A stretch of 35,444 nt of DNA from K189A clade bacterium. GTDB taxonomy: Bacteria > Pseudomonadota > Gammaproteobacteria > Pseudomonadales > Azotimanducaceae. The stretch covers positions 1 to 35,444 of the forward strand of contig QXZU01000098.1 of NCBI GenBank assembly GCA_009886205.1, in the 5' to 3' direction. Positions within the stretch are counted from its first letter, which is position 1, and each line of letters starts with the position of its first letter. The position numbers and the translations under genes are program-made. Shown here one piece after another: positions 239 to 1,628 of this stretch. Under the pieces are notes generated by a model. The model was given only the letters and a program-made list of their open reading frames with translations, was not told the DNA's origin and did no database searches.

Positions 239-267
239 TTGCTTGAAATAATTCTACTCTGTATAGT
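239..267 (+). promoter_or_regulatory. Candidate S10-operon promoter with GC-rich discriminator
   Basis: TTGCTT (239-244) and TATAGT (262-267) are separated by 17 bases. The -10 matches consensus at 5 of 6 positions and the -35 at 3 of 6. The bases after the -10, TCGCCTCCC, are GC-rich and resemble the discriminator of rRNA promoters that are repressed by ppGpp/DksA. Transcription would start near 274 and give a leader of about 200 nt before rpsJ. A second possible pair, TTGAAA (196-201) with TGTTAT (218-223), lies just upstream. Confidence 0.5.
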
Positions 268-329: not shown

Positions 330-357
330 AGTTTTAGAGTCGTGTTTAGTGGGTGTA

Positions 358-392
358 GTTGCCTCAGTGTGGCAACGCAAAGCTCTTTAACA
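358..392 (+). promoter_or_regulatory. rrn-type antitermination site (boxB-like hairpin plus boxA) in the rpsJ leader
   Basis: GTTGCC (358-363) and GGCAAC (371-376) form a perfect 6-bp hairpin with a 7-base loop. Five bases later comes GCTCTTTAACA (382-392), identical to the core of the E. coli rRNA boxA. The order boxB then boxA is that of rRNA operons. A GU-rich stretch at 416-433 lies where boxC would be. boxA RNA is bound by the NusB-NusE dimer, and NusE is ribosomal protein S10, encoded by the next gene. The site therefore suggests autoregulation or antitermination of the S10 operon. Sequence match is clear; function is inferred. Confidence 0.72.
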
Positions 393-399
393 GGAGAAA

Positions 400-411
400 T
401 GCTCTTTTAAC
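400..411 (+). promoter_or_regulatory. Second, imperfect boxA copy
   Basis: TGCTCTTTTAAC repeats the boxA sequence 19 bases downstream with one extra T. It contains a three-codon reading frame (ATG CTC TTT TAA, 399-410) preceded by GGAG only two bases away, too close for efficient initiation. It could be a second NusB/S10 contact or a decayed duplicate. Confidence 0.4.
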
Positions 412-474
412 CATTTTGTGCGTTGAGTGCGGGATGGGGAACGAGTGAATTTTAATTAGGGTTGGAGTTTGTAA

Positions 475-786
475 GTGCAAAATCAGCGTATACGCATTCG
501 CTTGAAAGCATTTGATCATCGTCTTATAGATGTATCGACGCAGGAAATAGTTGATACCGCTAAGCGGACTGGTGCGCAAGTGAAGGGACCTATCCCGCTG
601 CCCACTCGTAAAGAGCGGTTTACAATTCTTGTATCACCTCACGTCAACAAAGACGCGCGGGACCAATACGAGATCCGTACCCATAAAAGACTCCTGGATA
701 TTGTTGAGCCCACAGAAAAGACAGTCGATGCGCTTATGAAGCTCGATCTGGCAGCTGGGGTTGAAGTACAAATTAGTTTGAATTAA
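475..786 (+). CDS. rpsJ: 30S ribosomal protein S10 (NusE)
   Basis: First gene of the S10 operon. The 103-residue product starts [19 protein letters not shown] and is near-identical to E. coli S10 over its full length, including the [19 protein letters not shown] loop. S10 sits in the 30S head. As NusE it also pairs with NusB on boxA RNA and contacts NusG during antitermination. The start is GTG at 475, with GGAG at 464-467 giving a 7-base spacing. The leader upstream contains a boxA site, which ties this gene to its own product. The spacer to rplC is long (176 bases) and structured. Confidence 0.98.
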
Positions 787-854
787 TCGGAGCCTTGCTG
801 ACTCTTTAGGGAGTGAGTGAAGTTTCGAAGTTTTGATACAAAAAGGCTCCGATT
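785..854 (+). promoter_or_regulatory. Long inverted repeat closing a 70-nt structured element between rpsJ and rplC
   Basis: AATCGGAGCCTT (785-796) and AAGGCTCCGATT (843-854) are perfect 12-base inverted complements, starting inside the rpsJ stop codon. The enclosed 46 bases include a smaller ACTC/GAGT stem (801-804 with 811-814). No U-tract follows the right arm, so it is not a standard terminator. It resembles a multi-branched regulatory RNA or a processing site ahead of rplC. Confidence 0.65.
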
Positions 855-866
855 GGGAGCTGGCGA

Positions 867-923
867 TTGGCGAAAGCCGGGCACTGTCCTTTTACTCGAA
901 AGAGTAGATAAGGGTGGAGGCCC
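867..923 (+). promoter_or_regulatory. Two GAAA-capped hairpins ahead of rplC
   Basis: GGC-GAAA-GCC (869-878, extendable by G-U pairs) is followed by a longer hairpin. That hairpin has GGGC/GCCC (879-882 with 920-923), CCTT/AAGG (888-891 with 910-913) and TACTC/GAGTA (893-897 with 902-906), capped by GAAA at 898-901. Two GNRA tetraloops in 60 bases of non-coding sequence suggest a selected RNA fold. Being 40 bases before the rplC start, it could control translation of L3 and the genes coupled to it. Confidence 0.5.
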
Positions 924-962
924 AGCACGCCGTTGTTACCGCACAAAGGTAGGATTAGACCA

Positions 963-1628
963 ATGGCAATTGGACTGGTAGGTAAAAAAAGTGGCATGAC
1001 TCGCATCTTCAATGAAGAAGGTGTGTCTGTGCCGGTCACGGTTATAGAAGCCGAGCCTAATAGAATTACTCAGGTAAAGAGTGTTGAAAGCGATGGCTAT
1101 GTAGCTGTCCAAGTCACCACTGGCGAAAGACGACAAAGTCGTGTGAGCAAGCCCATGGCTGGGCACTTTGCTAAAGCGAAGGCTGGCGCGGGTCGCGGTT
1201 TGTGGGAGTTTCGTTCCATGCAGGCTGATGATTTGAACGTTGGTGGCGAGCTTACGGTTGAGCAGTTCGAGGCAGGTCAAACTGTCGACGTACAAGGCAC
1301 ATCAAAAGGTAAGGGTTTTGCCGGTACCATCAAGCGATGGAACTTTGCAGGCCAAGACAACACTCACGGCAACTCTATCTCTCACCGTGCGCCTGGTTCT
1401 ATTGGCCAATGCCAAACACCTGGTCGTGTATTCAAAGGTAAGAAAATGTCAGGCCACATGGGCGCAGCACGTGTGACAACACAGAATTTAGAGATTGTTC
1501 GGGTAGATACAGAGCGCAACCTGATTATGGTTAAAGGCGCAGTACCTGGAGCCACCGGTGGAGACGTATTTATTCGTCCTGCGGTAAAGGCTCGTCCCGA
1601 AGCGCTGGCTGCGGGAGAAGGTGAATGA
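963..1628 (+). CDS. rplC: 50S ribosomal protein L3
   Basis: The 221-residue product (E. coli 209) begins [16 protein letters not shown] and contains the [15 protein letters not shown] loop that reaches towards the peptidyl-transferase centre. The [11 protein letters not shown] region corresponds to the segment holding the glutamine methylated by PrmB in E. coli. L3 is one of the two assembly-initiating proteins of the 50S subunit. ATG 963 is preferred over the in-frame codon at 933 because AGGA at 951-954 is well spaced and homologues start here. The small C-terminal tail ends in an acidic GEGE. The gene overlaps rplD by 4 bases. Confidence 0.97.

Follow-up and report, generated by a model that had tools for sequence, protein, structure and literature searches.

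A conserved boxA in the rpsJ leader of a K189A clade bacterium and its relatives: a candidate site for S10 (NusE) feedback

Introduction

The NusB/S10 (NusE) site boxA has the consensus GYTCTTTAANA (Baniulyte et al. 2017, PMC5725501) and, according to the sections of that paper drawn on here, typically one Nus factor is autoregulated. The suhB boxA of Escherichia coli is reported to lie 6 nt from GGAG, and repression through it persists when the distance from boxA to the Shine-Dalgarno (SD) sequence is enlarged by as many as 100 nt. The same sections report a boxA at most 50 bp 5′ of rpsJ, the gene of S10, in three genera, for which NusE autoregulation was proposed, and two further genera with rpsJ downstream in the operon; the survey was limited to 50 bp from the start codon, and its authors allow for longer distances. 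They also describe translation of N as repressed through NutL in phage lambda. The S10 leader of E. coli, for its part, is the target of L4 (PMC10931766, in the part drawn on here). We analyse here the rpsJ leader in contig QXZU01000098.1 of a K189A clade bacterium (the window, meaning the whole stretch of 35,444 nt), which holds a perfect boxA, GCTCTTTAACA. NusE autoregulation of rpsJ was formerly predicted from few genera; the present lineage has a near-universal boxA in a defined architecture, and its operon shows a matching change, in which the presumed L4-type attenuator lies downstream of rpsJ.

Results

Perfect boxA sequences were found in 28 of the 32 rpsJ leaders of the genus, against 0.035 expected from dinucleotide shuffles, and in 8 of the 62 other-genus leaders of the family, where the same procedure predicts 0.05; the minus strand of the same leaders gave no perfect match. 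The boxA that the initial annotation had placed in the rpsJ leader is thus a perfect consensus match and, on alignment of related leaders, a conserved one. The genus set consists of the 32 of 40 genomes with an rpsJ match, one of the two rpsJ copies of G008 being used. For the family set, 200 genomes were sampled, of which 86 matched the window rpsJ DNA. Other genera account for 64 of these; without G135, whose match is short and partial, 63 were used, and 62 remained after L141, with less than 120 nt upstream, was dropped, so that this set is biased towards similar rpsJ genes. The genomes are mostly fragmented assemblies, and all counts are unadjusted for kinship. The nearest relatives with a name are a genome labelled marine gammaproteobacterium HTCC2089 (L088; S10 99% identical) and genomes of the K189A clade within the OMG group.

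In two further genus leaders boxA deviates by one base (L016, read by eye as GATCTTTAACA, and L037), and L042 and L164 are without boxA. When the 30 genus leaders other than these last two were aligned on boxA, its columns reached 2 bits, except for the Y (0.84), one A (1.79) and the C at the N position (1.53), and the 45 columns 5′ of it held 0.00-0.54 bits. Since 28 of the 30 rows were picked by their perfect match, the boxA columns are in part high by construction; the unconserved flanks and the GGAGA columns that follow boxA are independent of the choice of rows. Shortly 5′ of boxA, a GATCCTAGC ... GGTTGGAG-like motif, which the window does not have, is seen in L017, L018, L020, L023, L035, L036 and L037 and may be another regulatory element.

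Could the match be due to chance, or be a promoter remnant or a DNA-level site? In the organism's own genome the bare consensus has 28 matches, most of them within open reading frames (ORFs) of a mechanical scan, against 37 for the reversed control, and in Zhongshania-type leaders a similar sequence overlaps the -10 box. A scan of genome contigs gave 30 loci, of which 23 have a boxA leader (22 genomes, overlapping the genus set), 5 have matches overlapping the -10 box of Zhongshania-type promoters and 2 are without rpsJ. Against this stand the figures for the genus leaders, where 28 of 32 leads us to reject a chance origin of the rpsJ boxA, the lack of any match on the other strand and the unconserved flanks. 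We therefore hold the whole explanation to be extremely improbable: judged from the sequences, boxA is present in the genus leaders far beyond chance, and its identity, together with a likely binding of NusB-S10, is well supported by conservation and by precedent (PMC5725501). As a separate observation, the rpsJ leader of L090, labelled uncultured Persicitalea sp., is identical to that of Zhongshania marina (L079) in the stretch compared, so the bin label or the contig is probably wrong.

The features of the locus, with positions in the window, are the following:

239-267, plus strand: sigma70-type promoter, recognised by eye (-35 TTGCTT at 239-244, 17 nt, -10 TATAGT at 262-267)
354-379, plus strand: boxB-like hairpin just 5′ of boxA, a fold prediction (main stem 358-363/371-376)
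382-392, plus strand: boxA GCTCTTTAACA, putative NusB-S10 (NusE) site, a perfect match to the published consensus
393-398, plus strand: flank GGAGAA, which can pair with boxA and is SD-like
about 396-453 (core 401-446), plus strand: predicted hairpin filling the interval from boxA to the SD sequence
463-467, plus strand: SD sequence TGGAG of rpsJ (GGAG invariant in alignments A1 and A2)
475-786, plus strand: rpsJ, S10 (NusE), GTG start (Pfam PF00338 Ribosomal_S10, 1.1e-35)
787-839, plus strand: stretch 3′ of the rpsJ stop with a predicted hairpin, which resembles a terminator and has a U-run in many relatives, without U-run in the window
840-931, plus strand: element of the rpsJ-rplC spacer that resembles the L4 attenuator (first hairpin 845-861, GGCTCC-GATTG-GGAGCT)
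963-1628, plus strand: rplC, L3, the next gene of the operon, ATG at 963 (PF00297)

The window begins with what appears by eye to be the end of a tuf-like gene, followed by rpsJ. The promoter was spotted by eye, the consensus promoter scan having missed it; directly 3′ of its -10 box lies CGCCTCCC (269-276), which is GC-rich and rrn-P1-like, and its letters place the transcription start at about 274-278. The boxA would then lie some 106 nt from the start, inside the predicted transcript. With a strict pattern, a similar -10 region was found in 23 of the 32 genus leaders; in the 21 of these that also have boxA, it precedes boxA by 68-211 nt. The predicted leader of about 200 nt thus comprises a hairpin (358-376), boxA, a second hairpin, TGGAG and the start codon, and the initial annotation had the coordinates of the first hairpin, arms included, and of boxA right. 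From the end of boxA to the GTG there are 82 nt, which puts the window outside the 50 bp of the published survey; L035 and L036, in which 6 nt separate boxA from GGAG, fall within it. No Rfam family was detected in the window at gathering scores.

The comparison with ribosomal RNA leaders was informative in both directions. In its own genome, GCTCTTTAACA itself occurs 12 times, against 2 for the control, and the same-strand leader matches to the consensus are those of rpsJ, of the 16S rRNA gene (L183) and of a hydrolase-like ORF (L173). The rRNA leader, whose 16S gene identity was confirmed, presents a promoter TATTAT-ACGCCTCCC, a hairpin and the boxA GCTCTTTAAAA, the 16S sequence starting 183 nt from the first boxA base. 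The order of hairpin, then boxA, which the initial annotation had likened to that of rRNA operons, indeed matches this leader and those of three relatives. The flank does not: GGAGA follows boxA in 22 of the 30 genus rpsJ rows (columns of 0.85-1.65 bits) and in none of the four 16S leaders examined (own, L103, L104, L106). This flank looks like a second SD sequence. Elsewhere in the genome, L173 has, at about 1501, the consensus boxA GTTCTTTAATA on the same strand, 129 nt 5′ of an ORF resembling an alpha/beta hydrolase; two overlapping 100-aa ORFs lie 252-287 nt downstream of the match in L178, and the match in L180 lies inside one ORF with another 262 nt downstream. The suhB-like leaders of ten genus genomes (200 nt upstream of the best PF00459 hit) gave no boxA, their best matches having 2-4 mismatches, which fits the published rule of, typically, one autoregulated Nus factor.

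The structures discussed here are predictions. Hairpin z-scores were obtained for 26 genus and 7 other leaders, L035, L036, L038, L165 and L124 being dropped for N or for less than 40 nt on one side. For the upstream hairpin the genus mean is -0.86, with 11 of 26 below -1, against -0.15 in control stretches 41-80 nt upstream; the seven leaders of other genera gave -0.57 against -0.67 in the control, that is, no enrichment. The 6-bp hairpin described earlier as boxB is predicted in the window, and its conservation across relatives is weak.

The hairpin between boxA and the SD sequence behaves differently, with a genus mean z of -2.32 (24 of 26 below -1) and, in the other genera, -1.58 (5 of 7 below -1). 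In alignment A2 (7 leaders), 89.7% of the cells pair and 5 of the 18 pairs have changed on both sides; none of 500 shuffles reached its covariation score or percentage paired, and 61 of 500 reached the count of pairs changed on both sides. The hairpin of A5 (8 leaders) is weaker, with 77.6% paired, a score reached by 11 of 500 shuffles and as good a score when the structure is slid by one column (0.168 versus 0.161), and the consensus fold of A1 is poor (-5.36 kcal/mol). Because of this weak covariation in A5 and poor fold in A1, support for the downstream hairpin comes from the z-scores and A2. The GU-rich stretch at 416-433, first read as a possible boxC, forms an arm and the loop of this hairpin and is not conserved in sequence, so that boxC has to be abandoned; with boxB weak as well, the full boxB-boxA-boxC layout finds no support.

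Two other candidates were rejected. Right 3′ of boxA, GGAGAAATG (393-411 in the window) opens short frames, MLF-stop in the window and some 17-25 codons in a number of relatives, the peptides of L019, L027, L038 and L165 being alike by eye; a conserved leader peptide is not retained, the ATG being absent in L022, L025, L031, L032 and L034 and standing, by eye, 2 nt from GGAG. Inspection by eye of the boxA leaders of the window's genus revealed no U-run attenuator inside them. In two leaders of other genera, L162 and L163, the hairpin 3′ of boxA is followed by 5-6 T and looks attenuator-like.

The second feature of this lineage lies downstream. In 31 of the 62 other-genus genomes, an element of at least two hairpins stands 5′ of rpsJ, with a U-run in 10 of 11 aligned copies. 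From these 11 upstream copies we built a covariance model, R1, and from 18 intercistronic genus copies a second one, R2; their E-values are rough. The best match of R1 in the E. coli K-12 region was the S10 leader, a weak match obtained with filters off (7.2 bits, E 0.014); with default filters, neither R1 nor R2 matched the E. coli leader. R1 matched genus loci between rpsJ and rplC at E ≤1e-3 in 7 of 31 (L035 5e-8, L036 1.3e-7, L015 8.1e-7, L016 1.1e-6, L037 2.9e-6, L018 2.6e-5, L038 7e-4), the rest giving weaker matches or none. Reciprocally, R2, built on 18 of the 31 genus copies, matched the other 13; of the 31 upstream leaders, all absent from R2, it matched 11 at E ≤1e-3 (best L122 5.9e-8, L123 1.3e-7 and L133 1.5e-5). 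These reciprocal matches point to the same RNA element upstream of rpsJ in relatives and between rpsJ and rplC in this lineage. For the window copy the match is weak: it reaches 86 bits with R2, to which it belongs, and 9.1 bits with the independent R1 (with filters off, E 0.0073 over 1.7 kb; in a 180-kb search, E 0.77). We take the intercistronic element for a putative L4-type attenuator.

The position of the element goes with the presence of boxA. The element classes were set by hand at E ≤1e-3 with R1 or R2, except L059 (R1 0.0022, R2 0.0081). None of the 31 genomes with the element upstream of rpsJ has a perfect boxA; with the element between rpsJ and rplC, 34 of 50 do, namely 28 of 31 in the genus and 6 of 19 in other genera (Fisher p 0.0017 for the other genera alone, kinship ignored). 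The rpsJ-rplC spacer measures 16-33 nt in the upstream class (11 resolved by script; of six others inspected by eye, five have a short spacer of at most about 56 nt, the sixth, L112, being read on the wrong strand). In the intercistronic class it measures 165-446 nt (41 resolved by script). From the element position and the presence of boxA, S10 appears to have escaped control by L4 and come under a boxA of its own.

A role of boxA mainly in leader folding or processing, either with the Nus complex as an RNA chaperone or as an RNase site, and with no S10 feedback, could account for a leader that is more structured as a whole than its shuffles (z -2.10). It would leave unexplained why boxA is found where rpsJ lacks an L4-type leader, and why it stands beside the SD sequence in L035 and L036, and we find it quite improbable.

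A strict scan detected a hairpin with a T-run right 3′ of rpsJ in 11 of 31 genus spacers and a looser scan in 21 of 30, raw counts without shuffled control (the 30 exclude L042 and L164). By eye, 17 of the 30 are convincing (L016, L017, L018, L020, L023, L024, L026, L028, L029, L031-L036, L039 and L040). The U-run is absent in the window and in several relatives.

Discussion

Our results make it probable that the boxA of the rpsJ leader is functional and that S10, with NusB, controls its own synthesis through it. This is one of the two roles proposed in the initial annotation, feedback of S10 on itself, and both the conservation of the site and the precedent of Nus-factor autoregulation (PMC5725501, in the sections already mentioned) speak for it. 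S10 made beyond its use in 30S assembly would bind, with NusB, to boxA in the nascent leader and would bring SuhB and the remaining Nus factors to RNA polymerase. This would create an RNA loop, made shorter by the hairpin between boxA and the SD sequence, that blocks ribosomes from the rpsJ start; transcription, once uncoupled, may then be stopped by Rho. With the L4-type element between rpsJ and rplC, L4 would be placed to control the operon from rplC onwards and S10 would control itself. Binding of NusB-S10 to the leader and repression of rpsJ are deduced here from the arrangement of the sequence. The spacing in the window is within reach of such repression, because suhB tolerates 100 nt, and the more so as a predicted hairpin fills most of the interval.

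The other role is that of an rRNA-like boxA, in which a Nus/SuhB complex would carry polymerase past the rpsJ-rplC block, so that the downstream operon tracks the supply of S10, with or without repression of rpsJ. The rrn-P1-like promoter and the order of hairpin and boxA, both as in the organism's own rRNA leader, favour it, as does the terminator-like hairpin found after rpsJ in part of the genus. Passage through the intercistronic block is possible since E. coli rrn complexes with SuhB lower intrinsic termination in vitro (PMC6614801, in the part drawn on here). However, the window and several relatives lack the U-run after the rpsJ hairpin, and the context of the rpsJ boxA is unlike that of rRNA, with its GGAGA flank, a hairpin reaching up to the SD sequence, no boxC and a weak boxB. 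Moreover, translated messenger RNA is normally protected from Rho. In its original form, antitermination of the whole 14-kb transcript as in rRNA, the proposal is unsupported: an L4-like element, and in about half of the genus also a terminator-like hairpin, stands before rplC, and the flank differs from that of the 16S leaders. We regard an antiterminating boxA as possible but unlikely. Feedback on rpsJ itself is favoured because the operon has been rewired and because L035 and L036 have a suhB-like spacing; likewise, the intercistronic element, joined in about half of the genus by a terminator-like hairpin, and a GGAGA flank that the 16S-leader boxA sites lack argue for a device aimed at rpsJ.

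Still less likely in our view, a combination of both roles can be imagined on the model of lambda nutL-N-tL1, in which NusB-S10 at boxA would repress its own translation and at the same time make polymerase antiterminating past the intercistronic terminator or attenuator. If this were true, the rest of the S10 operon would be made only once S10 is in surplus, and the operon would have been rewired for it. The lambda pL-nutL-N-tL1 region includes tL1 and an RNase III hairpin; we know of no N-like protein or N-binding boxB for the lineage with boxA before rpsJ.

Several points weigh against S10 autoregulation as we have formulated it. The same boxA could equally serve antitermination. In L017 as many as 220 nt separate boxA from the start codon, more than was inserted in the E. 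coli experiments. Among 390 order-level genomes, no more than 2 contained the extended form GYTCTTTAACAGGAGA; both belong to this genus, which contributed at most 4 genomes to the sample. The form also occurs in four other-genus family leaders outside that sample (L066, L155, L162 and L163). Of the 13 genomes in which the element was detected in neither position, 2 have boxA, and a perfect boxA is missing from 13 of the 19 other-genus genomes whose element is intercistronic, so that the rearrangement does not require boxA. The rows of this cross-table are related genomes and so lack phylogenetic independence.

The predicted NusE feedback loop becomes directly testable in the boxA lineage, which also raises the question of a ribosomal-protein operon that divides its feedback between two regulators. 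In the literature searched, most subscription papers lying outside it, we found no boxA leader of this kind that occurs together with an L4-type element in the rpsJ-rplC spacer.

The individual parts do have counterparts in known systems. With the L4-regulated S10 leader of E. coli, the intercistronic element shares a first hairpin of the GCTCC..GGAGC type, a further hairpin and, in some members, a U-run; it differs in that it lies between rpsJ and rplC and not upstream of rpsJ, in that the match is weak and in that its link to L4 is presumptive. The boxB-boxA-boxC arrangement of rrn operons has the same boxA, a comparable rrn-P1-like promoter and a hairpin before boxA, whereas here boxC is missing, boxB is weak, GGAGA flanks boxA and a translated gene follows. 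Lambda pL-nutL-N-tL1 resembles the locus in its boxA, its hairpin, the gene of an antitermination component and, for about half of the genus, a terminator-like hairpin; here, in contrast, the operon is a cellular ribosomal one, and the window is without the terminator U-run. As for the autoregulation of a Nus factor through boxA known from suhB of the Enterobacteriaceae, our locus departs from it by the 82 nt to the start codon, the hairpin before the SD sequence, the GGAGA flank and the intercistronic L4-type element, and agrees with it in having a perfect consensus boxA, conserved in relatives, in the leader of a Nus-factor gene.
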